DNA of 64,000 bases from Zasmidium citrigriseum (lineage: Eukaryota > Ascomycota > Dothideomycetes > Mycosphaerellales > Mycosphaerellaceae): assembly GCA_002786025.1 (NCBI GenBank), contig NHNW01000046.1:248001-312000 (forward strand), in the 5' to 3' direction. Numbering within the stretch: the stretch's first letter is position 1; every line of letters starts with the position of its first letter. The position numbers were made by a program, and so were the translations under genes. The notes below the pieces were generated by a model, which saw nothing but the letters and a program-made list of their open reading frames with translations, ran no database searches and was not told the origin of the DNA. Positions 35,041 to 55,755 of this stretch are shown here, one piece after another.

Positions 35041-37591
35041 CTATATTCGACCTCTTAACTAGGCGGCCTTTCTTAAGACGCCCTCTTACTACTTATAAGA
35101 TCTAGTAATAGTAATCCTTAATACTATCTAGCGTATTAACTATATAGGTATCCTCGAAGTTATAGAAGGACTTCTTAAGCTACTAGTAGGCTCTATTATA
35201 AGACGCGACTCTCCGTAAGACGTAGTCTAGGTTAAGAGTACCTCTTACTATCTTATTATATCTTTAGACGAGATACGGGTCTAGTATCTAGCCCTTCCCT
35301 ACTATATTACCTACGACTCTCTCTTCCTTAAACTCCCCCTAGTTTAAGATACCTAAGAGACTCTACGTATAGATAATATAGAGCTAGACCTATTCGCCGA
35401 GTACGCTACTAAGTAATAGAATATCCTCAAGTTAATACTAGAAAACCCTATAGTATTAGAGATACTAAGTACCTTTAATATCCTTATATAACTAGGACTA
35501 GATAATATTAATAAAGTTATAGATAAGGTAGCTATCGACTTCGAAGATAATAGCGCTCTCGATACTCTCTATATACCTCTTAGCTAACTACGAGACCTTA
35601 CTACTAACTAGTTCCTTTAGTAAGTTAAGTTAATACTTACGTAGATTTACTTCGTACTCTATAAGGTAGAATAGGCTTATCGAGATATAGTTATAGACTA
35701 TAATACTCTCCTTAAGGCTAATAAGGTAAATAAGAAGAAGTCGGAGTAGGTACTAGAAGAGATAAAGAAATATAAGGGACTCTATAAGTATATAGATAGT
35801 AAGAAGAAGTAGTAGTAGAAGCTCTATAGAGAAGTAGAGGCTAAGAAGAACGTACTAAAGAACTAGATAGAAGACGTCGAGATAGAGCGCGATTCCCTTA
35901 TATAATAGCTATCTAACGTAGCGAAGTAACTCCCTAACGCTACTAATTATAGCCGTCCGACTAATCGCTAGCTACTAGCTCCTTAGTATTCTACGTCCTC
36001 CTTATCGCTTAAGCGCTAATAGAATAGAGCGCTACTAGTACGCTACTACCGTTCCTCGAAGACCCGAGATAACCTAGGTAGCGAACTATCTAATTCCTCT
36101 AATTCCTTTAATAATAACGAGCGCCGTAAGAATACTTATAGAACTAAGAAGACTAAGAAGGTTAAGAAGAGTAAGACTAGTAGTATCGAGCTATCTAATT
36201 CTAAAGAAGATACTAGCGACGTAGCCTCTTACGACTTAACTCTACGAGAGGGTATTAAGACGAGCCGAGACGTAAAGGACCCTAAGCCCTTCTTAGGCGA
36301 CTAGAGTAAAGGCCTAACCTTTAATAAGTAGACTAATAAGCTAGGTAATAAGCTTATTATTACCCGGTTCTATAATATCTCTATAGTACTTAACTATATC
36401 CTCTCTATAACGACTAGTACTACCTATAGTACTATTAAGAGTAAGATCCCTCTAACCCTATATCTAACGAAGACCTATAAGTTAGAAGAAGAATACTTCT
36501 AGTTAGTAAAGGAATACCTTAACTACCTCGTAGACTACTTCGCTACCTTCGACCTAATAGGCGATACCTAGTATTAAATAAACTAGCTCTCGATAGGACT
36601 AAACGAGAAGTTCTCCGAGTTCTACCCTAAGTATTAGAAGATTAACGCCTTCCTACCTAAGCTTAAGGGTAGAAATAGCGATAAGATAGAAGTTAATAAG
36701 CTATATACTAAACTTAGCTATAAGTATAAGAACGGCCTACGCCTTTAGGTCCGCGATACTCTAAAGTAGCTAGTCGAACTATACTAGCGTCTTTAATAAG
36801 AAAGTACTATCCTTAAAGATCTATACCCTAAGCCCTAGAAGGATATTAAGAAGAATAGTAATAAGAGTACTAGCGCTAGCTCTACTAGCTAGAAGGGTAC
36901 TACTAGTACTAATAGTAATAGTAGCCTTAAGCCTTAGTACGAGCGACTAGCCGAGTTCTATAACCTACCTCGTATAATACCTAAGTTAAAGGTATAACTC
37001 GAGAAGGAGAGTCGTTATAAGCGCTACTATAAGCTAGGCTATAGGCTAGACGACGCCTCGTACCTACTTATTAGATACTAGAAGCTCCCTTTCTTTAAGA
37101 AGGAGCTAACGACTACTACTACGCTACTAGCCCCTACTATCGAAGAGGTAGGAAAAGCCTAGACTATTACCTAAGCGTAATAGATAATAGTCCTTTAGGT
37201 GTATTAATATATATAGTATACGCCTTCTTACTTTCTATAGATTAAGACTATAACGCTCCTAATATCGACTAATACTTTATAGTCGAAGGTCTAGCTAATA
37301 GTACTAATATAAGTATTTTCTTAGATAACGGCTATACTATCTTTTATATTAATATATCCTTTACGTACGCTTATAACTTTAAGTTATATCCCTTAAAGGA
37401 CCCCCTACCTTTAGGGCTCGCTAACCTTTCTACTACTAGTAAGTCTATTACGTATACTACTAACGTCTACCTCGTAATTAATAGTTATTACGAGTATATC
37501 CGCTACTATATTACCGACCTTAGATACGATATTACGCTTAGCTATAACTAGTACTATAGATACTAACCGCTTAAGGATTAGGTATAAGACT
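34888..37591 (+). mobile_element. Ty3/gypsy element A, 5' part (plus strand), split by element B
   Basis: A 153-bp 5' LTR (34888-35040) is followed by a long plus-strand Gag frame with RIP stops. Gag blocks are recognisable (NEKFSEFYPKYQ near 36,605; a degraded zinc knuckle near 37,015-37,065, where Cys and His codons have become Tyr). A protease-like stretch (FLDNGYT near 37,320) follows. At 37,591 the frame is broken by element B and resumes at 44,575, continuing to about 44,795. Reverse transcriptase, integrase and a 3' LTR are not found, so A is truncated. Its LTR and its protein are clearly related to B, so the two belong to one family. Confidence 0.85.
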
Positions 37592-37596
37592 AATTA

Positions 37597-37750
37597 TATA
37601 AGGGACTAATAATAGGTCTAGACGTAATAACTAAATTCTCGACGAGTTATCTAAGAGGTAGCTAGGAAAGCGGGCTAGTTATAGTCGGGGAGGTACGCTA
37701 AGCCGGGCGTCGGCGGGCCGAGCCGCGTTACGTAATATTAACCCGTAATA
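37597..37750 (-). repeat. 3' LTR of element B
   Basis: 154 bp, direct repeat of 44416-44569. It keeps CG at the five sites where the other LTR has TA. The base just inside (37751 onward, on the minus strand) belongs to the polypurine tract, which fixes this as the 3' LTR. Confidence 0.92.
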
Positions 37751-37764
37751 CTACCCCCCCCTTT
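37751..37764 (-). promoter_or_regulatory. Polypurine tract of element B
   Basis: On the minus strand this reads AAAGGGGGGGGTAG immediately before the 3' LTR. Such a tract primes plus-strand DNA synthesis in LTR retrotransposons. Its G-run is one of the few purine homopolymers in the block and survived because RIP does not target it. Confidence 0.75.
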
Positions 37765-38199
37765 AAATTAGCTTTAGTCCTCTAAAGTCTATAACCGTAG
37801 CCTTATATAGCTATTATCGCTCGAGTAAATAGTATATTATTATCGTTTATATCTATAGCGTTATTACTATCTACGCTTAGTACTAGCGTTACGCGTAATA
37901 GCGAATCCTAGCGTCCTACTAGGTAGGTAACCTAGCTAGTACTTACGTCGATACTATTAGTAACTATATAGTAGTTATCTATTTTATTAAGATCCTCGAC
38001 GTACGTAAAGACTAGTCGTACTCTCTAAACTCGCCTAGCTAACTATTAGCTAGCTACGAGTATTAAGGAAGCTATATTAGTAGCTAGCTTAGTAGGCCCT
38101 TAAGTAGTCGAAACTAGCTTATACGCTATCTAGTTAACTAGTAGCTAAAAGCCTAACGGTATAGGTTTATACGGGTAATTATAATAGAAATTAGCAATA

Positions 38200-41100
38200 A
38201 TAGTATAAGTAGAGGTAATTATACGCGAAGCAGGCTCCTAGGTAGCCTTACTATCTAAGTATCCTTTCTACTTTATAAGTAGCTATATACTACGCCCTCT
38301 CTTTCGTAAGTCTAGTACTTAATCTACTTCGTACTACTCTTCGACTCGGTTATCGTCTTTAGTAACTTCGATTAGAGGAGGGCGTTCGCTAAGGTCGACT
38401 TTAGGTAGATAAGGTTTAAGTCTATCGGGGTAGAAGGAGTTATATACCTATATCGAGGTAGGGTTAATATCTAACTTATAGGCGCGGCCGTCGTTAATAA
38501 CTTCGAGAATTAAGACGGGTCTGTACTATTTAATATTAAGCTTCTTCGTAGGGCGAGTTATCTTCTAGTACTAGGTGTTAATATATACTCGATTACCTAC
38601 TTTATACCGCGGTAGTACGCTACGATAGCGATTAGTATACTCGGCTTATTCTTATTATACGAACTATAACTATATCCTAATAAATTACTATATATCGTAA
38701 AGGCGCTTAGCAAATTAGTCCGCTCGGTTAGCGTTAACTTATTAAGGATTTAGTAGGAGTTAACGAGGGAGTATATTAACAATTATACGGGTATTTCGTC
38801 CTATCTCGGCAAATATAGGCGATACGCTAGTAGATTTAGAGATATTATTATTACGGGCTAGTTTATATACTAGTAGCTAGTCTAGCTAGTCGTCCTAGGT
38901 ATAGTTAACGAAGGATCGTAAGTAGCGCTCTAACTCCTTATTAGTATTCTTAGCTTATCTATTAGTCTATAGGTGGAAAGTAGTTAATAAACAATAATTA
39001 ATCCTTAATAAGTCGTAGAGACGTCTCTAGAACGCGGAGATCTATTAGCTTCCTCTATTAGATACTATCTTTAGTAGTAGTCCGTAGTAGCGATAGACTT
39101 TATTAAGGTAGATATACGTAATATACTCGGCTTTAGTATTAAGTACTAGAATTATATAGCTACCCTTCCCTAGGCGGTTAGTAATAGTAAGGATATTAGT
39201 ATAGTCGTTTCTATTAGCCGTATAACGCCCCTATAGTAGTTAGACGATAAAATCTATTCCGATATCGTCCTAGAGCTAGAAAGGAATTAGTAGGGGTTAG
39301 AGAAGCCCTACGGGTTACTAATTAAGGGTCTTGTTCGAGTAGTAGTTATAGTAAGCTCGTACGGCGGCTCTAGCGGACTACGAAATCCCTAGCTAGATAA
39401 AGTTACGTTAGATAATATCTATAGTCTTTACGCGGCCTACGTAACTATACGCTAGTAATAAGTAATAGGCAGTAGCTATCTTCTTACGTAGAGAGTCGTC
39501 GGTAGTCTTAGGTACGAATACGCTATAAAGCCCGTAGCGATTCTTTAGGTAGACTAAGCCTCCGAGAGTAGCTATACTTCTATTATCTATCTTACGGCTA
39601 CGAAGGTACGGAACGGGTAGGCCTTAGTTAAGTAACCTTATTACGTCTTATATATCTACGCTCTCGGCGTATATATTACGGATCTCTTATATAAGTTCGC
39701 TACTATTATATAGATCGAGAGAAGACGAGCTTAAATTAAGTACCTACTCGGGTATAAGGATAACTCGCTCCTATTAAGTAAGTCGTAGGTCTCTAGGTAA
39801 AGGTCTATCTTAGGGACGGCGTATTAAACTATCTAGCTTAGTTCCTTAAATACTAGGCTAGTAGACTACCTTAAAGAAGAACTATAAGAGGAACTTAGCC
39901 TAGCGAGCCTATTAGTAATTTAATTATTTACTAGTTATAAAGTATTCTAGATTCTTATAATTAGAGTAGACTAGAATAGGCTAGCCTTTACTATTAGATA
40001 GGTTACTTATACCCTCGTTATCCTAGTTATAGTAATAAGATATTAGCTTAGGCTACTACTCTTCGAAGGCTTTAACGATTACTATAAGTTCCTTATCGTA
40101 GATATCGTAGTTATACTCCGTCGGGGTTATCTTCTTCGAAAGGTAAGCGATAGGTCTTAAAACCCTATCGGTACTACGTTAAGAGAGGACTACGGCGGTA
40201 ATAAAGTTAGAGGTATCGGTTTCTAGAATAGTTTCTAGACTAGGGGTAAAGTAAGTAAGTATAGTATCGCTCGTAAAGGCTACCTTTAACTACTCGAAAG
40301 CTTCCTAGTATTAAGGCGTCTATTACTATTGTCTCTTATCGGCGGTTTTCGTAAGGTTAGTAAGTAGTAACGCTATTCGAGAGAAACTGCGGATAAAGCG
40401 CCTATAGAAGTTTACAAAACTAAGAAACGATAGGACGTCCTTTATACTACGCGGCGTATACTAGTCGTATATCGCTTAAACTTTCTCGGGGTCTATACGT
40501 ATACCGTCGGTGCTAATAATAAGGCTAAGATACTTAGTCTATTAGACGTAGAACTCGTATTTGTCGATATCGAGTTAGAGGCTAGCTACGCGTAGCTTAT
40601 TAAGCACTTTACGAACGTACTAGACGTATTCTTCGTAGGTATTACTAAAGATAAGTAGGTTATCGAGGTATACGGATATAAAGTCGTTAAGGAACTCCCT
40701 AAGCGCGTTATTAATATATAACTAGAAAGTACTAGGTACGTTATAGAGGCTAAAAGGTATAGCTAGGTACTCGAACTACCTATAGCGAGTAGTAAAGGCT
40801 ATCTTCTATTCGTCGCCTTTGGTAATACGGATTCGGTTAAATACCGCTATTACGTCGAGTTTAGTATACTACTTCTTTCTAGTAATCTTATTAAGCGTAT
40901 CCTAGACTAGTAGGATTAGGTATCGGCTCTTAACCGTAAGTTTATTTAAAGCTCTATAGTTAACATAAACTCGTAGGCTACTACCTAGCTTTCTAACGAT
41001 AAGTATAGGCGTAGCGATAGGTAAGTTACTACCTCGGATATTACCCTTCTCGAGTTACTCGTCTATCTATTTCTTAATAACCTTATTCTTAACTACTAAT

Positions 41101-44795: not shown

Positions 44796-44821
44796 GTAGA
44801 CCTTACTAAGGGAAGGGAAGG
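44796..44821 (+). repeat. Left terminal inverted repeat of element C
   Basis: 26 bp, exactly the reverse complement of 55730-55755. It is followed within 10 bp by an internal palindrome, cttccctatagggaag, absent from the right end. Confidence 0.8.
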
Positions 44822-45076
44822 TTCCCTTCCCTATAGGGAAGGGAAGTAATATAGTATCCTATAGGAAGGGTAGGAAGGTAGAAAGTAATAGAAATCCCTT
44901 CTATCCCTTCCCTTCCTATAGGAAAGGCTAGAAGTATAGAAAGGCTAGAAAGGCTAGAAGCCGTACTAGTCGCTATACTAGTTAAAGGCTATAGAAACGA
45001 CGTAAATAGAACGATTAATAATCTTAAACGATTAACGATCTTAAACGATTTAAGTACTACTATTTACTATATATAT

Positions 45077-45660
45077 AAACCTAATAACCTCGCCTTCTAC
45101 TAATAAAAGGACCTAGTAGCCTAATATAGTAGGGGGTAGAGTCTTAGAAGGGCGCGTAGCTACTCTAGTACTAGTATCGCTATATAGGTAGTAGTTCTAG
45201 GCTAAGTAAGCGTAAACTTCTATAAGCTTTACGCCTAACTATAGATAAGGGCGAGGAGGGAAAGAAGGGTCGTATCCGAAAGAAGCTCTATAAGTACTAT
45301 CTTTTTACGCTCTCTTTAGCCTTATCTATCCTTTTTAATATACTAACTAAGCTAAATATCTATTATTAAACCTAATAACCTCGCCTTCTACTAATCGGAG
45401 CTAGCCTAACCTAGCGGTAAGAAGTCTCTAAGGGCGATATAGCTACTCTAGTACTAGTATCGCTATATAGGTAGTAGTTCTAGGCTAAGTAAGCGTAAAG
45501 CCCGATAAGTTCTAACTCGATAAGGAAGACGGCGAGACTCTAGCTTATAACGACCTTTTTTTTACTATTCTTAGCCTTATCTATCGTTTTAATATTCTCC
45601 TAACCTACCTAATACTTATTATTAAACCTAATTTACTCGCCTTCGTCTAATAAGAGTCGC
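45077..45660 (+). repeat. Three imperfect tandem repeats near the left end of element C
   Basis: The block aaacctaataacctcgcctt occurs at 45,077 and 45,368, with a diverged copy at 45,624. A second shared block (ctagtactagtatcgctata followed by ggtagtagttctaggc) occurs at about 45,170 and 45,454. The spacing is about 291 and 256 bp. Subterminal repeats of this kind often serve as transposase-binding regions in hAT elements. Confidence 0.7.
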
Positions 45661-46756
45661 GAAGAGAAAGATACTATAGTATCCTTTTTTTTACTACTCT
45701 TAGCCTTATATAGTAGTTAGATATACTCTATATCTTTTTATAACGTTAATAGACTTACGTTTTATTAAGTAATAATCGTTTAGTAATTAGATAAGTTTTC
45801 GTACTAGTTACTATACTAGTCGTTATACTAGTCTACTATAAAGTACTTTTTTATAGCCTACGAGCTTCTAGTTAAGAAGACCGTACTTAAAGGTAATAGA
45901 AAGGTCGGATCGACGTATTATAGTAATAGCCTCGCTAAAGATCTAGTAGTTAATCTAGCGGTTAATTAAGAGGACTTTAAAGGATATATAGATTAGGCTA
46001 TCTACCTAACCTACGTCTAATAGGTCGTCTAACGGGTCGCTTTTTAAGAGTCCTTAACGATAGTCTATTCGGCGGTAGATTAGACTATACCTAAGGGATT
46101 CGCTACGCTTCGTATAACTAGCTTTCGAACTCCTCCTAAGCCTTCTCTTTATCGTCGTTAAAGAGTAGATTATTACCGAGGAGGCTTATAGACTTAGCCT
46201 CGAGCTCGCGCTAATCGTTATTAAGGGTAGTACGGGCTATTATTAACGCCGAGAGGGAGGTACTAGTATAGTTACGGTTATAATAGTATTAATATCTAGC
46301 TACGCTAAAAAGGCGCTTAACGGCTACTCTAGCTCTAGGTACCGCGAGGATATCTTAAGCTAATTAAGCTACCCGAGGAAACTTAGGTTTAATAGCCTTC
46401 TATTACTTAATCGGATCGCTACTATACGTTTAAATAAGGTGCTTTTAATCTATAATCGATATTAGTAAAGATAGACTAGTACGCTAACTAGTACGCTAAC
46501 TAGTACGTACCTAAGCGCCTATACTTATCGAACTTATCCTCTACTAATATCTCCTTATTATAAATAGCTTCGTCTTTATTAAATCTAAAGTTACTATCGA
46601 CTTATTAAGGCTATATCGCTAGTAATAGTCTAGCGTAGGAGACAAAGTCGGAGTACTTCTTAATAAAGAGTATCCTTATTAATAACTAGTATTTCGGTTC
46701 CTATAACCTATCTCTCTATACGGCTAATTTAAAGAAGGTATTCTTTCGTATAGGTA

Positions 46757-47153
46757 TAAGTAATATCGCGTACCTATATAAATAGCTAAGTACGAAGGCT
46801 ATAGCGGAATAATACTTAATTAGCTTAGCCTTTATAAGCTTAACTATATTAAGTAGGGCGTGCTTCTACTAGTTCTACTTCCTACGTAGGTTTAACTCGG
46901 CTTTCTCGAGTTAAATAAAGAGGTTAGAGTAGTATAAGTATATAAGGTATAGAGNTAAGTAATATCGCGTACCTATATAAATAGCTAAGTACGAAGGCTA
47001 TAGCGGAATAATACTTAATTAGCTTAGCCTTTATAAGCTTAACTATATTAAGTAGGGCGTGCTTCTACTAGTTCTACTTCCTACGTAGGTTTAACTCGGC
47101 TTTCTCGAGTTAAATAAAGAGGTTAGAGTAGTATAAGTATATAAGGTATAGAG
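46757..47153. repeat. 198-bp exact duplication around a single N (assembly seam)
   Basis: 46757-46954 and 46956-47153 appear identical base for base and are separated only by n at 46,955. An exact head-to-tail copy around an ambiguous base is typical of two contig ends that overlap but were joined without merging. Confidence 0.8.
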
Positions 47154-47233
47154 TTAGGCCTATTAACGAGCTTATTAACGATATATAGTAAGTAAACGGC
47201 TACGCGAGGTAGAGGATTTCCTAGACTTAGAGT

Positions 47234-47936
47234 AACTCGGTATTATTAACGCGGAGGTAATCCTAACCTTCCTAATATAGATACTAGTCGATAAAGCGGT
47301 ATAGATTAATATACTAGATAAGTATATAGGTAGTAGAATCCTAGTAGGTTTTAATATCTTATACTAGTACTAACGGTCTTATTTATCGACGTTTCGTATT
47401 AAATACACTCTAGCCGTAATACTTATCGCTAAACGTTTCCTCTATACGTAGTATATCTTCTTAGAGTTTTAGGAACTTCTTAAGTCGCTACGTACTAGCG
47501 AGAATCTATAAAATAGAGGCTCGGAGCTAGGCGATATAAGCTTAACTAGTACGACTAGTATAGCTTAGAATTATACTTACCTTANAACTTAGTATTATTA
47601 ACGCGGAGGTAATCCTAACCTTCCTAATATAGATACTAGTCGATAAAGCGGTATAGATTAATATACTAGATAAGTATATAGGTAGTAGAATCCTAGCGGG
47701 TTTTAATATCTTATACTAGTACTAACGGTCTTATTTATCGACGTTTCGTATTAAATACACCCTAGCCGTAACACTTGTCGCTAAACGTTTCCTCTATACG
47801 TAGCGTATCTTTTTAGAGTTTTAGGAACTTCTTAAGTCGCTACGTACTAGCGAGAATCTATAAAATAGAGGCTCGGAGCTAGGCGATATAAGCTTAACTA
47901 GTACGACTAGTATAGCTTAGAATTATACTTACCTTA
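47234..47936. repeat. 351-bp near-identical duplication around a single N
   Basis: 47234-47584 and 47586-47936 are separated by n at 47,585. They differ at a few places, mostly CG/TA dinucleotides (ctcgg/cttag, agtagg/agcggg) and single C/T changes (gtaatactta/gtaacacttg). Contig ends from two slightly different transposon copies is the simplest explanation. Confidence 0.75.
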
Positions 47937-50349
47937 GCGAGAATATATAGATATCTATATTCTTCGTTAGTAGTCCTAGCGTCTTTAATAAATTACTTCT
48001 ACTCCTTTTTATTATAGTTCCGTTTAAACTTATCGTTCGATAGACGAATCTTAAGGGCGGTATATAGATTACTAATAGCGAGCTAAATAACGTGTACGAG
48101 GCATAGTACTAGTTACGGCTATTTCTTTAACTCCTCTTTAGTTAGTTCTAAGCCTATAATAGTTATAGTTAAGCTCTACCTATCTAGAGTCGTAACCTAT
48201 ACTACTAGTAGCGCTACCTAGCCGTCCCTAGTACCTATACTACCGTTTAGGTAGGTGTTATTAGTATACGCCCGAAGATAAGAGAGGCTATAGTAATATT
48301 AGATAGGAAATAGGGGTAGTAGGCTTTTCGAGCTTATATAGTAGTATAAAGCGTCTTATTATTCGAAGCGTTATTAGTCGTAAACGCTAAGATCCGCTCC
48401 TTTAGGTTAAAGTTTATTATTATCTAATCTACGTATTAATAGAGGTTTACGCTAGTATACTACCCCTTAATCTTAGTAAAGGATAGGAGCTCCTTATAGT
48501 ACGTCTAGTCTTAATCGATCTAAAAGCCCTTAATACTAAGAAAGGCTAGTTAACAATTAGAGGTACTCTAGGCGTCGAGGGTAATAGCTACCTTCGAATC
48601 GATACTCTTAGGATAGTATAGTTTGTTACGAATCTTCTTAATAATGTTACTAGTAGTATCCTTAATCTAGTAGCAGACTGTTAATAGTAATAGTATCTTT
48701 ACGTCCTTATATAGGTACTTAAGGCTCCTCTATATATAGATATTCTTAAAAAACGTTACTAGTACGCTAGTACTAATATAAGCGTTTACCTAATAGATTC
48801 CAAAGTCGTAAGGGCTATTAGCTTCGAATCCGTCTTTATATACCGCGTTTTCGGCTAGCTTCTACCTCTATAAATCGTTAGCGTACTAGTCGGCGTACTA
48901 GTTAGCGTACTAGTTAGCGTACCTAAACTCGAAATCCCTCGTTAAGGTCGAGCTAGCGTTTCCTTCTGCTTATAGTCGATACCTGTAAGTCCTTATAAGA
49001 TTTCTTCTCTAGGTGCCGCTTTAATCTAGAGTTCCCTATATTATTAATACTCGGGTGCTTTAGTATAGTACGATAGACCTTATAGATAACCTTAGGCTCG
49101 CTATTAGAGATCTATATACCCTCTTCAAATACTATCTATTCTGTAGCCTTTTTCGTAGAGCTCTATTATACAAATCGCTTCTTCGCTTTCTCTTCTCCGA
49201 CTTATAAACGTATTAGGTTAGTATAGGGGGTGTAGCTATAGAAGTCGATAAACTACTTCTTATATTCTCGATCGAAGATATAGTAGTCCTCTCTCTTCGT
49301 AAACGTTATAGCTACTTAGGTATTGTCTTTATTAGTATTATATATAGGCGTACGCTAGCTATTAAGGGAGTTAGAGACTCGTAAACGCGTCCTTAACGAA
49401 GGACTATTATTCGTAGGCTCCTATAACGAAGCTACTACTTAATATCGTAGAGAACGCCGTAGTATATTCGTTAGTAATATAGTAAACGATAAATTGTCGT
49501 TAGGGTCGAGGTAGGTAGTAGAAAAGGCTCGGCTAGTACTACGAGTAGGTATAAGAGGGAGTATTAACTATAATATAGTATAGAAACGCGCTAGATAGTA
49601 CACGTAAATAATAGTATAGGAAGAAGGAAGGAAATAGTTATAAATTTCCTACTAGAAGTTCTAGAAGCTATAGGAACGCTCCTACTACTACTTTAATACT
49701 TAGTAGACTGCCTACTAGAGCTACTCGCTACTCGCTATGCTAGCTATACTATACGAGCTCCTTATAATAAAGATTATTATACGCTTAACTATAAAAAGAT
49801 AAGCAAGCGTTAATAGTAAAATAGCGTCGAAGTATAGAGTAGATACCTCGTCTAATAATCTCAAAATCGCGGCTCGTTATCGCTAAGCCTACTATATTAA
49901 GCCTAGTCTACTATAGCTAGCTTAACGCCTAACTCTTAGCCGTCTATACTATTTGTACTTTAGAAATAAAGGCGATCGTTTCTTAATTAATCTAGCGTTA
50001 GAGTTACAACTTAAGGGTTACTCGATTATAGCTTAGGGTTAATAGAAAGACGGCGACGATAAGGTAAGAAGACGATTAATAAGCTTAAGATTAAGCCGTA
50101 CTAGTCTATACTAGTTAGAGGAAATACTATTTTAATTTAAAGCGAATACCTTAGTATTTATAGCTACTATAGAGGAATATTACAAAATAGTATTTTTCTA
50201 AGGCTTGGATATTTACTAATTTTAAAGTAAATAAACGCGTCTTATATAGAACCCTCTTAACCTTCGTCCTTAAATATATACTAGAAGTTAAGAATTAAGA
50301 GAACGAGTAAACGTAGTCTAAGATATTTATTTTCGATTACTATACTATA

Positions 50350-51930
50350 TAGAATTAAGCCTATAATAGCTTGTCGAGGTTAGTAGAGACCTCGCGCTTC
50401 TCTACGAGCTTATTAATATCTACTTTATTATTCGCGAGGGCCTCGTAATACTTAAATAACGCCCTCGCCTATATAGGATCTAACGCTAGAATCTAGCTAA
50501 ACTCCTTAAGATAGGCCTTAATATTATTAGGCTAAACCTCTATAGGACTAGAAAGTATAATATCCTTATTATTAGCCTTAACTCGCTCTCTAATATAGTA
50601 GTAGTAGCGGCTTAACTACTAAGGGTAACGAGCGTCTAGATCCTACGATACTAAGTTACTCTATAATAATATCTCGGCCTTCGTAAAGACCTTATACGGT
50701 AGAGGTATCTAGTAGTTATTGTTTATCTAGTCGACGGCTATATTATATACCTCCTACGAATACGTTAGCTTAGCTTATTAAGAAGGCGAAGGGATACTTA
50801 CAATATTCTATAGCTCCGCCTAATAAGTATCTATAAGCTTCGGAATCTTACTAAAGAACCTAATAATCTAAAGAAGACTCTTAGGGTCGACTAGTATCGC
50901 TACGCTATAGAGATTTAGCTAGCTAAGAATACGAGGGCGGATACGCTCGTCTCGAACGACTATATCGTAGAGATACTATTTCCCGAGTAAAGATTCGCGT
51001 ATACTTATCTAGTACTTACTAGGGCTACGATCTAGGCTATCCTTTATCTCGTCGCTAGCCTACTTCCTCTAGATAATACTATTAGCCTCCTAGAAAATAA
51101 TAGTATAGTAGGCGCTAGTCTCGCTAAACTTATCGAGCTCTTTATTAATAGCCTCTTCTATAGGGTCTTACTATCCTTTATTATTAGTGTTTTCGAAGAG
51201 CTCGTTAATATCCTTATTATCGATTAGATAGCTTTATATACTATATATTTCGTTAGCTCTAGCTTAGACTAGTACGGACTAGTACGCTACTAAGGAAGAT
51301 TTTAAACTTATATTATATCCCTAGTAGCTTTCTATCCTTTCTTCTTAAATACCTTCTAGAGCTTACTACGTATATAGTTAGCTATATTTAAGACTATAAT
51401 AGAATATACTACTACTAGAAATATACTCTTCCTTACTCTCTAGCTTATTATTAATATCTATTAGGTTAGGGTAGGTAGCCTACTAGGCTATACTATATAT
51501 ACTATTAGTCTAGATCCTAACTAGTACGACTAGTACGCTACTAAAGGATTTTTAATATATAGGATCCTCTAGTTATAAACCGCTATTTTCGCGCTTAACT
51601 CGTAGGCCTACTACTTAGGGGATAGCGCGAGGTAGTCTTTATTTCTCTCGAGACGGCTAATAGCTAAACGCTTACTCGTACGCGCTTTCTCGATAGCCTT
51701 CTATCTTAGAGCTCGGTTTATACGGCGCTTGTTCTCTCTTATAGTATTCGGCTTCTTAGACTTCGCTTCTAGGGGCTTTCGCTACTATAGCGTAGTATAG
51801 AAAGGCGTCTTGTCCTTAGATTTTATACGCTTCTATAGCGTAGCTAGCGACTCGGATCTCTCTCGCTTTATTCTCTTAGGTAGGTTATACTCTATAATAG
51901 CTTTTAGGTATACGGGTAGCGATACGATTA
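50350..51930 (-). pseudogene. Unidentified RIP-degraded coding frame in element C
   Basis: Read on the minus strand from about 51,930 to 50,350, one frame stays coherent for about 500 codons apart from TAG/TAA stops explained by RIP. It begins with a basic region (KRRINRALR, KARTSKRLAISRLERNK near 51,640-51,720), passes through acidic and helical stretches (DINNKLESKEEYISS near 51,430-51,470) and ends near KREVSTNLDKLL (about 50,380). I do not recognise the family. It may be a second protein of element C or belong to another element nested in it. Confidence 0.5.
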
Positions 51931-52049
51931 ATATACAACTTATATATAAACGAGTAGCTCGATACTAGTATAAATAGCGAAGATATACGTAGGAAAGGCG
52001 TATTATTGCTTAAACTCGCTAGCGTCGCTATATTAATACTACTATTACT

Positions 52050-53007
52050 AGGTAATAGACCCCTAGTAACGACGATACCTCTTTAATAGCGATATCGAGG
52101 TTATTAATAATAAAGAAGAAGAAGAGGATAGGAAGCGACGAGAAGGTACTAATATAGTATTAGGAAGCTTATAATCGTAGGTAGTTAATATAGGAAGTAA
52201 GCTAGTAACTAACCGAAGGAACGACTTCCTTAGCTATTATAAGACTCTAAGCTAGCCCTTTAGAGTACTAAGTAACTCTTTAAAGAGGAAAGCAGTAGAT
52301 AGATCGACTAGACGAAAGATTACGAGCGAGTTAAGTATATCGAGACGTTAACAATCCCCGTAGTAGCTAGGATAATCTAGAAGCTAATATAGCCTATAGT
52401 ACTACTCGAGAAGTACTACGATCGATTCGAAGGTCCCTCCTACTAGTTATAACCTCTACGAATTTCGGTATATATTTAAAATACGAATCTCGAGGATCTT
52501 AGTAATCTAGAGCCGTAGTAGTCGCTATACTAGTCTTATCTAGCGAGGCTTAGCTAGCTCGGCTAGATCTCCGTATATACTTTAGGCTCTACCTATATCT
52601 AAGTAATATTAATTTCGATAACGATTAGATTAGCTATACGAGAGTTTAACTACTACGGTATATAGTATATAGACCTCTACCGTATAGGCCCGACTATATT
52701 ATTATAATAGGCCTTCGTCGACGCGTCTTTCTTCTATCTCCTTTTAATTAATATACCCTTTAACTAGGTCTCTATTTTAACGTAGATTAACACGATATTT
52801 ACGTATTATCGACGGCTAGCTCGAACGAAGACAGTAGTAGGTATTATAATACCTCTACTATTACCTAATATAGGCTAAGCTCTAGTAATACTAGCCTAAA
52901 AACGACCTCTAGCGAGGAAGATACTATTAAAGCTAAAGCCTAAACGTACGCTAACGAGTTGATATATAGTATCTAACTAGAGTAGCCTTCTAAAGCGAAG
53001 GACTCGA
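52050..53007. other. RIP-degraded sequence upstream of the H3-like relic
   Basis: No frame here matches a family I recognise. It lies between the minus-strand relic ending near 51,930 and the H3-like frame, and would contain any promoter the H3-like gene once had. It carries an ACTAGT-type motif cluster near 52,515-52,535. Confidence 0.4.
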
Positions 53008-53361
53008 CGATTCGGAAAACCCCTTAAAGGCAAGAAATTAATAGGTATAGCTCTAGCTAGCTAGCGTAAATAGAAACTAGGTATAGTTACTCTACGTAAG
53101 ATTCGATATATATAAAAGACTTACGATCTTATTATTCCTCGGATATCGTTTATACGACTTATTCGCGAAGTAGCCGCTACGTTTCGATATAACCTACGTT
53201 TCTAGTCTAACGTATTATTCGCTTTGTAAGAAGCCGCTAAGGCGTACCTCGTCTACGAGTTTAAATATAGTCTTAATCTTACATTATATATAAAAAGAGT
53301 AATAATTTAGTAAAGAGATATAAGGCTCGTACAAATACTACGAGATAAGATTCTTCTAATA
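53008..53361 (+). pseudogene. Histone H3-like fold relic inside element C
   Basis: In one plus-strand frame, 53,080-53,358 aligns without gaps to the core of histone H3 over about 93 residues. Landmarks: GIVTLRKIR (H3 GTVALREIR), DLIIPRISFIRLIREVA (DLLIRKLPFQRLVREIA), NLRF*S (DLRFQS), AL*EAAKAYLV (ALQEASEAYLV), IKRV (AKRV), RDIRLV (KDIQLA). By hand I count about 38 identities, and three stops fall exactly at H3 glutamines, as RIP of CAA/CAG predicts. Upstream (53,008-53,079) the frame is basic (RFGKPLKGKK) but lacks the ARTKQTARKS tail. Loop 1 has H3 length, not the longer CENP-A loop. It is a divergent H3-type histone, now broken. Confidence 0.8.
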
Positions 53362-55729
53362 GATAAGTTACTAGTATAGAGGTAAGCGGATAAGTCTACT
53401 ATCTACTTAAGATTTTATTTCCTAAGACTAGTACGACTAGTACGGACTTCCTACCTACGAGGGCCTAGCTCTAATATCGACGATATCCCTAGTACTAGAC
53501 TACCCTCCGTATCTATACTCTAATAAGACTTTTAAAGTATAGCGATAAGACCTTAAAGTATAGCGAAGAAATACTACCTCTTAAATATTAGTTACCTCTA
53601 TACTCGCCTACTATAAGGTATCTCTCTAGTTCTCGTAGGGCTTAAAGCTAATCTCGTCGGCCTAATAGATCGTTTCTTTATTATGTATTTAATAGACCTC
53701 TTCTAGTATTAACTTCGGATATATTACTACTAGTATCGACTAGATCTCTAGTCTCGGTCGTAAGAGGCTAGCGTCGCTTCTCTTTATTAATAGCCTCTAG
53801 CTATAAGCGTATATAGTAAGCTATTACGAGGACTATCTCGAAATACACTACTACTAAAAGCTACTAGTAATATATCTATCTATATATTTATCGAATCCTT
53901 CTACACTAGCTACTATACCTACCCTATCGCTATAGATATATACCGAGTTTAAGTTCTAACTACTCCGCCTACTTCTTTACTAAGGGACTCCTCGATTACG
54001 CCGTCCCCTAGGTATAAGTTTACTCTTTTAGTACGAGCTTACCGTATTACTATACTAGGGATTTATAGTAGTACTAGTATTTCGGCTTTAGACTAGTACG
54101 ACTACTACGCTAGCTCTTATATACTTTAATTAGGGCCCTTATATTCTTTAATTAGCGATTCTATAGCTTACTCCTATCTTCGCTTTAATAGGTATTATAT
54201 ATAAGACTTCGGTAAAGGAAGGAGTAAGCCGTCGCTAGCTAAGATACTATATAAAGGTATTACTAGTAACCTTAATCCTCTTCCCTTTATTATACCCCTA
54301 CTACCGACTCTTAGTCGGCTCTTTAATATACGTATAGCGGTAGCTAGTATATATTCTCTATATTACTACCTACGGTCTCGATATACTAACGATAGCGATA
54401 GCTCGCCGCCGCCCTACGTTACTATACTAACTATTACGAGCTCGCTATTAATATTTTAACGGCGAGCTCGCCTTTCGTCTAAACCTCCTATACTAACAAT
54501 TCGAAATCGCCCTTATCGCCGTTAATTATAAGTAAATCGAAGAGATATTATAGGCAAAACGAAGAGAACGAGACTAGATAATACGCCGAGGAAGAGGCTA
54601 ACGAGCGCCTTTAAGAAGACTAGAGCTATAAGACTACTAGCCCTAAATTAGCTAGTAGTAAAGAAGAAGAAGAAGTCTAGTACTTTATCTAGACTCGCCG
54701 ATAGCCCCTATTAGTACTATAGAACTCGCTTTAGAGAGAAGGTATTATTTTAGCGACTAGCTAGAAAGACTCCCTATAAGCGCCGTATATTTATACTATA
54801 ATAGTCCCCGTACTAGTCGGGATTAAGCTAATAATAAATAGGTACTAGTAATAAGCTCGTTAGATAGGCCCTCTTCCCTCTAGTCTAGGTAGCTAGTAAG
54901 TACTTCGCGTATACTCGTAAGCTATTTAACCACCTAAATAAGGAGATCTTACTCGACGTTAGTTTAATTAAGAAGAGGTTATCGAGGGATACTTCGATAC
55001 TTCTTTAGGCCGTTAGTAAAGGCTATATCGCGTACTACTTCGTAAGTATATTAACTTTCGATAGAAATTGTTTAATATATATACTAATTTAATATAGAGG
55101 TAGGTAAGATTATAACTATTCGTACTAGTCGCTTTATTAAGGAGTCGGATACGGACTAGCTATATAGATTGTTAAAGGGCACCTTAATAGAGAAGGACAC
55201 GGCGGCTTAAGAGGACTTTAAGAAACTCTAGGCGTAGGCTTTATAGGTATCGATTCTAGATAAGTACTACACGCCGTCTTTATATAGTATAGTAAAGAAG
55301 GAGTTTACGGTTAGGGCTAGTAGGCCGTTAGGTTCGCTTAGAAAGGGTAAGGGTAAGGAGAAGGAGGTCGTTCCTATAAAGAAGAAGAGACTAGTTATTC
55401 TTCTAGATAAGGACGGCGCTAACGATAGCGATAGCGATAAGTAGATAGTTCTTTAGCGCTATACCTTCTTCGCTTCGATCGAGATACCTAGTACTTACCT
55501 ATATACTAATAGCTAAATAAATTAACCTTTTAGTACTTATATTTAAGATCTTTCTAGCTCTACTTTATAATTTTAGCCTATCTATATACTATACTAGTTG
55601 CTATACTAGTCTTCCCTATAATTTCCCTTTCCCCTTTCCTTCCTAGCGTCTATAATTTCTAGCTAGACTATATATTATTTTATCTTCCCCTTCCTAATAT
55701 TAGTAGGAAGGGAAGACGAAGAACCCTTT
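53362..55729. other. Right half of element C, unidentified
   Basis: RIP-degraded sequence with ACTAGTACG-type motifs near 53,426, 54,091, 55,120 and 55,592. A glutamate/lysine-rich plus-strand stretch (about 54,540-54,690, several gaagaagaagaag runs) may be coding, but I cannot assign a domain. Close to the right end the composition becomes pyrimidine-rich, mirroring the left end. Confidence 0.4.
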
Positions 55730-55755
55730 CCTTCCCTTCCCTTAGTAAGGTCTAC
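55730..55755 (-). repeat. Right terminal inverted repeat of element C
   Basis: 26 bp, exactly the reverse complement of 44796-44821. The sequence beyond it does not resume element A in any way I can recognise. Confidence 0.8.

Follow-up and report, generated by a model that had tools for sequence, protein, structure and literature searches.

Histone-bearing hAT elements of Dothideomycetes are described in PMC3538342 and PMC6710886, so that the remark in the initial annotation of the present locus that it knew of no described case does not stand. According to the account of Manning 2013 (PMC3538342), Pyrenophora tritici-repentis carries hAT elements with a histone, H3L, that fits neither H3 nor CenH3; the elements are 5.6 and 2.3 kb long and occur in 26 nearly identical copies, which are mostly intact and for which there are ESTs. 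Whether the captured gene is under selection, and for what reason, was left open in that account. Dhillon 2019 (PMC6710886) reported a RIP-dead, H3-bearing hAT element in six Mycosphaerellaceae, at 135 to 784 copies. In Pseudocercospora fijiensis this element forms one family, is 9.5 kb long, has terminal inverted repeats (TIRs) of 18-20 bp (PMC6710886) and contains DUF659, with no dimerisation domain identified in that study; the authors explained its origin by a single capture of a transcript of the host H3 gene and inferred an intronless retrocopy (PMC6710886). Repeat R25 of Stagonospora nodorum is presented in PMC3017866 as RIP-damaged and as having similarity to histone H3 together with weak similarity to a DNA transposon, and PMC12730594 reports TET/JBP-carrying fungal DNA transposons from Pucciniomycotina, Agaricomycotina and Pezizomycetes.

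As in the published definition of hAT-H3L elements, the locus studied here is a multi-copy hAT element whose TIRs enclose an H3-like gene. It lies in a stretch of 64,000 nucleotides from Zasmidium citrigriseum that was analysed as a whole (the window). The element is a member of family A (families are described below), and its features, in window coordinates, are as follows.

44797..55754, no strand: histone-bearing hAT element of family A, with an assembled length of 10,958 bp
44797..44821, plus strand: left TIR TAGACCTTACTAAGGGAAGGGAAGG, with 30 genome-wide matches
46199..48831, minus strand: degraded hAT transposase, from tblastx blocks with approximate limits, containing both assembly joints
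46238..46417, minus strand: hAT C-terminal dimerisation domain PF05699 (E 7.2e-5, 22.9 bits, cut-off 21.4)
50598..50774, no strand: segment alike at the protein level in families A and B, a possible remnant of a third ORF
51647..51820, no strand: second segment with protein-level similarity between families A and B
52798..53067, plus strand: in-frame region 5' of the histone core, basic near the core and probably in part an N-tail
53068..53349, plus strand: H3-like histone core, alpha-N to alpha-3, interrupted by RIP stops
55730..55754, minus strand: right TIR, from the inverted arms of the end search

The end search yielded inverted arms of 26 nt (44,796-44,821 and 55,730-55,755). The TIRs themselves are 25 bp long and start with TAGACC; the base outside, before TAG, differs among copies. 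With at most three mismatches, the TIR had 30 matches genome-wide, the two of the window included, and the reversed control had none. A sister copy (C133:68119-78654) is 10,536 bp long and flanked on both sides by the 8-bp target duplication AGCGCGCT. The ends at C76:179152 and C76:206751 share the 8-bp sequence CGCCGCCT across an interval of 27.6 kb, a spacing that presumably reflects nested insertions. A perfect 8-bp target duplication was thereby present in two of the three family A end pairs examined; around the window copy, whose flanks read AAATTAGG and CTCGAAAT, it is absent. The window copy contains two single-N joints, at 46,955 and 47,585, and the sequence on either side of them is duplicated, over 210 and 351 bp at 97-98% identity (window 46,748-47,156 and 47,234-47,936). 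Overlapping contigs seem to have been connected here through one N, an assembly effect that may account for the extra length of the window copy. A further copy, L029, is collinear with window 48,176-55,754 at 95% identity. Collectively, the 25-bp TIRs and the PF05699 match confirm the TIR-bounded, hAT-like element that had been proposed from the letters of the window. Elsewhere in the window, an AT-rich stretch (37,590-39,421) is 66% similar to part of L027, a locus with a family C histone; no histone match was obtained in this stretch in the genome-wide PF00125 search.

The element was originally described as RIP-mutated, in agreement with its base composition: the element has a TpA/ApT ratio of 2.04 and a substrate index (CpA+TpG)/(ApC+GpT) of 0.05, and the corresponding values for window 1-34,000 are 0.49 and 1.31. 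RIP produces transitions only. No intact histone copy was present among the repeat rows of the genome-wide PF00125 search; all 38 are broken.

At the protein level, the window transposase resembles stretches of families B, C and E (tblastx), and a homologous transposase is common to A, B, C and the single locus E. No transposase match was obtained in L028 (5.6 kb), the sole family D stretch compared. The PF05699 domain is present in family A, in further copies too, and in family C (C120:310126), and a database search with the family C transposase stretch, which is partly out of frame, returned nothing at E ≤ 0.001. Transposase and histone lie on opposite strands, 4.3-4.4 kb apart, in the collinear families A and B, whereas in family C the two share a strand, with the histone directly 3' of the transposase. 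Because of this different arrangement, independent gains or internal moves of the histone are possible. PF04937 (DUF659) matched seven times genome-wide, on G000 C63, C72, C86, C106, C109 and C64, and none of the seven matches fell at the histone-bearing stretches of the PF00125 search. With no listed histone close to these DUF659 hAT matches, the histone seems to be tied to only part of the hAT elements.

The plus-strand frame of the histone core matched PF00125 with an E-value of 2e-13 when stops were read through. In the genome-wide search, which covered six frames over the whole 44.4-Mb genome, the match extended over window 53,059-53,331 with an E-value of 8.8e-10 and contained four TAG and three TAA codons. 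The solved histone H3 chain 4jjn_A aligned to the same frame without gaps (E 1.4e-19; query residues 22-115 on H3 39-132), and the best 60 of the 175 solved sequences matched by the window core carry H3 names. The core is 41% identical to H3, RIP changes included, and its loop 1 has the H3 length and RF, without the long loop and without Trp. Besides PF00125, the only Pfam match in the family A element at E ≤ 0.1 (six frames, read through) was PF05699; no further domains were found at E 0.1 or better. The core has six stops, all but the first and the last of which fall at Gln columns of host H3, and over 35 copies 149 of 267 stops fall at Gln of host H3 or CENP-A. These 267 stops of the histone frame compare with 241 and 297 in the two other forward frames; the histone frame is not clearly more open than its neighbours and is therefore defined by homology, not by openness. 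A chance match is ruled out by the profile E-values, by 12 further DNA matches and by collinear copies. On the evidence of the sequence, the identification of window 53,068-53,349 as a RIP-killed H3 fold inside a hAT element holds.

Several statements of the initial annotation concern this core. The ungapped alignment with the H3 core that it had drawn is borne out by the read-through PF00125 match and by 4jjn_A, and the profile search that it had suggested as a check found the histone genome-wide as well. The placement of the histone about 2.4 kb inside the element is correct, since 2.4 kb separate the core from the right end of the element. Stops were indeed found at H3 Gln codons; in the core as delimited here these are the second to fifth. 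The suggested structure prediction gave four helices in the order of H3, at low confidence (mean pLDDT only 60). Finally, the lack of a canonical N-tail applies to the window copy but not to the element histones at large: in the least altered copies an H3-like tail motif is kept, KAPRK in families C and D and KALRK in one of the two family F copies.

The genome contains 49 PF00125 matches, of which 38, by our own sorting, are stop-riddled repeat copies, a number to be taken as a lower bound; four of the other 11 rows represent host H3, an H3 variant and CENP-A (two exons). The copies were assigned to families from the similarity of the DNA outside the histone, or of the histone itself where stretches were short, which gave 12 in family A (with the window copy), seven in B, ten in C, four in D, two in F and three at locus L013 (E and two G). 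The repeats of the genome hence hold at least six histone families, E and G being one locus. At the DNA level, window 53,008-53,361 has 12 other matches of 86-97% identity, one of them just 84 bases long, and four further family A copies with kilobases of flank (L018, L020, L029 and L030) carry the same histone at the same place. Both results uphold the proposal that the histone is multi-copy and part of the mobile unit; no intact ORF was found among the PF00125 rows of this genome. The histones of A and B are 56-59% identical, RIP changes included. The element ends, one of which was read per family, are related: TAGACCTTACTA (A), TAGGCATTACTA (B), TAGATACCGAGG (C) and TAGACCCCGAGG (D). The relic cores have no introns; host H3 in this genome has introns.

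Two loci have more than one histone. At L013 (G000:C1:301000-310900), three histone-like relics lie within ∼5 kb beside a related hAT transposase, and the second of them has a 16-residue insertion after alpha-2 (our count). In L028, a second short histone-like stretch (1964-2074; H3 residues 58-94; E 9e-5) is found 2.6 kb from the family D histone.

The host genes are L009, a canonical H3 with introns; L010, an unusual H3 variant that seems to have an intron; and L011, a CENP-A that in the tree joins the CENP-A proteins of Recurvomyces, Baudoinia, Zalaria and a Teratosphaeriaceae (97/80). The variant L010 (G000:C69, minus strand, ∼890-1420 of the locus) is very divergent (branch 1.24), with a KAPRKQL tail and unusual core residues. 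Among the element histones, loop 1 has the H3 length with RF in A, B and E and is longer in C, D and F; L012, the least mutated C copy, reads TRW and EAAKAFLV as in CENP-A, the Trp being read in L012 only. Families A, B, C, D and E and the protein P0052 have a Glu ahead of the Phe/Leu that belongs to the host LFE motif; this Glu is absent from F and G and from every other reference row. The motif NLLAI is common to C, D, E and P0052 and is weak evidence for grouping because P0065 and P0091 carry it too. P0052 is an intact environmental H3-like protein of 164 aa, encoded on a 1.2-kb contig and 56% identical to the family C core; it has a long loop 1 but RFQ, and groups with the element histones.

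A tree of 47 rows and 107 columns, with 19 element rows and P0052, joined A and B with a support of 99/93 and C, D and F with the same support. A branch with a support of 87/87 divided the element rows and P0052 from every H3 and CENP-A row. This separation rose to 97/95 when six long rows, two of them of family G, were left out, and was 94/92 for the remaining element rows when P0052 was omitted as well. The tree of H3, H3 variants and CENP-A proposed at the outset therefore sets the element rows apart from both, although the AU tests given below leave rival groupings standing. The 120 matches listed for a family C query are headed by fused, mostly plant, H3-type proteins, often named CSE4 as well; of the listed fungal proteins that have a name and a single histone, the best-ranking are CSE4 proteins. 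The alignment-based protein search was swamped by the fused H3 proteins. From these data a single origin of the element histones is favoured rather than demonstrated.

Transversions between families are not made by RIP, as RIP makes transitions only. Between the histones of families A and B, transversions at codon positions 1, 2 and 3 numbered 16, 10 and 32 (p 0.0012; third position against the rest, p 0.0005). The third position was highest in 14 of the 15 family pairs, with p < 0.05 in nine (uncorrected, the pairs not being independent); six pairs had no significant codon pattern, and the pair A-F had position 1 highest. One transposase block, compared between A and B, gave 14/12/35 (p 0.00034). 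No significant pattern was observed for the block beside the transposase (48,962-49,159; 13/18/21) or for the two segments at 50598..50774 (8/5/10) and 51647..51820 (16/15/24). The ratio of positions 1+2 to position 3 between A and B was accordingly 0.41 for the histone, 0.37 for the one transposase block and 0.65-0.74 for the three other blocks. Within the five multi-copy families, 0 to 4 columns had transversions, as compared with 18 to 74 columns with transitions alone. The codon pattern fits a gene that would have been read as protein while the families parted, with RIP acting afterwards on each copy. It suggests that the histone belonged to the element and was not dead cargo.

We consider it fairly likely that H3L is an old, selected, element-encoded gene of the hAT lineage, a reading that rests on the histone families, the shared transposase, the separation in the tree, the shared Glu, the related ends and the third-position transversions, and with which the transcribed, mostly intact H3L of P. 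tritici-repentis (PMC3538342) agrees. As far as sequence can tell, the histone is probably such a gene and not a recent passive copy of host H3. A recent copy is unlikely, as originally argued, because of the 41% identity to H3 and because the AU test rejected the grouping of family A with host H3 alone (p 0.025), though not that of A+B with host H3 (p 0.177). A passive transduplication would mean that an H3 transcript of the host was picked up by a hAT element and copied as cargo, that RIP killed the copies and that the histone never served the element. The intronless retrocopy inferred for P. fijiensis (PMC6710886) is in line with such an event, as are the intronless relic cores beside a host H3 with introns. 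The AU test, moreover, rejected neither A+B with host H3, as stated, nor A+B with the H3 rows (p 0.127; 0.059 and 0.172 in reduced sets), nor A+B+E with H3 (p 0.0885). We nevertheless judge passive capture to be unlikely: the third-position excess between families and the element grouping at 97/95 point to long coding evolution in the element lineage, and a host gene would hardly have accumulated differences as large as those between A and B, since H3 is almost invariant across fungal hosts.

Several captures by related hAT elements, from host H3 in A, B and E and from CENP-A in C, D and F, would explain the two types of loop 1, the CENP-A-like residues of L012, the CSE4 names among the listed family C matches and the different position of the histone in C relative to A and B; the grouping of C+D+F with CENP-A was not rejected either (AU p 0.097). 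That the families arose in this way is nonetheless quite improbable, given that the best trees join them with P0052, which combines a long loop 1 with RFQ, that the Glu before Phe/Leu is common to A, B, C, D, E and P0052, that C and D keep the H3-type KAPRK tail and, more weakly, that NLLAI recurs in C, D, E and P0052. A CENP-A origin of the window copy itself was also considered; the H3-length loop 1 with RF and the H3 names of the solved matches listed speak against it, although the AU test did not reject A+B with CENP-A (p 0.174). A stray host H3 pseudogene that came to lie inside the element by chance would suit a single locus and nothing more. Its probability is negligible: the same histone at the same place in the collinear family A copies L018, L020, L029 and L030, among the 12 further DNA matches, rules it out.

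If H3L is an old gene of the hAT lineage, it would have been taken up once, long ago, and would have been under purifying selection while the families diverged. The element may then have expressed H3L together with its transposase, and the protein may have paired with host H4 and entered nucleosomes, so that chromatin at or around the element would have become less silenced or easier for the transposase; RIP would later have broken all 38 copies. Whatever goes further than selection on the reading frame is inferred throughout, and a role of H3L in silencing or accessibility is doubtful. Somewhat less than even credence is given to the full account, in which H3L was kept as a working gene through the family split, with a partly CENP-A-like loop 1, diverged with the transposase and was used to alter the chromatin of the element, the Pyrenophora and Mycosphaerellaceae cases being branches and not separate captures. 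Should the histone have been kept by selection, a mobile element would have supplied its own nucleosome part, which would offer a transposon a direct route to act on silencing, and the published 'housekeeping gene captured and amplified' would be recast as an old element gene. The question of selection raised in Manning 2013 is made testable with sequence alone.

Taken together, the histone-bearing, RIP-dead hAT element of the window is of a kind already published for Dothideomycetes. Like the P. tritici-repentis element as described in PMC3538342, it has a hAT dimerisation domain, TIRs, an H3-like gene and, possibly, a further ORF; it differs in its length of ∼10.5 kb, in being RIP-dead and in occurring as several families, a comparison made by description. 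With the P. fijiensis element (PMC6710886) it shares the RIP-dead state, premature stops, TIRs, the hAT type, AT-rich blocks and, through other family A copies, an 8-bp target duplication, and differs from it, again by description, in the several families and in the dimerisation domain of family A. The 16 extra residues of the second L013 histone are paralleled in the second P. fijiensis copy, for which PMC6710886 does not state the insertion site. R25 of Stagonospora nodorum may be the same kind of element, although PMC3017866, in its treatment of this repeat, files it as an endogenous gene region, unlike the present element. The TET/JBP transposons, as characterized in PMC12730594, are similarly fungal DNA transposons, including hAT elements, with a gene acting on epigenetic marks; their cargo is a dioxygenase, not a histone. 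Neither several H3L families per genome nor a test of constraint on H3L was found in the literature searched (titles and abstracts of the best matches, with few subscription journals and preprints). Compared with the published elements, the present analysis adds several histone families in one genome and the codon-position result.
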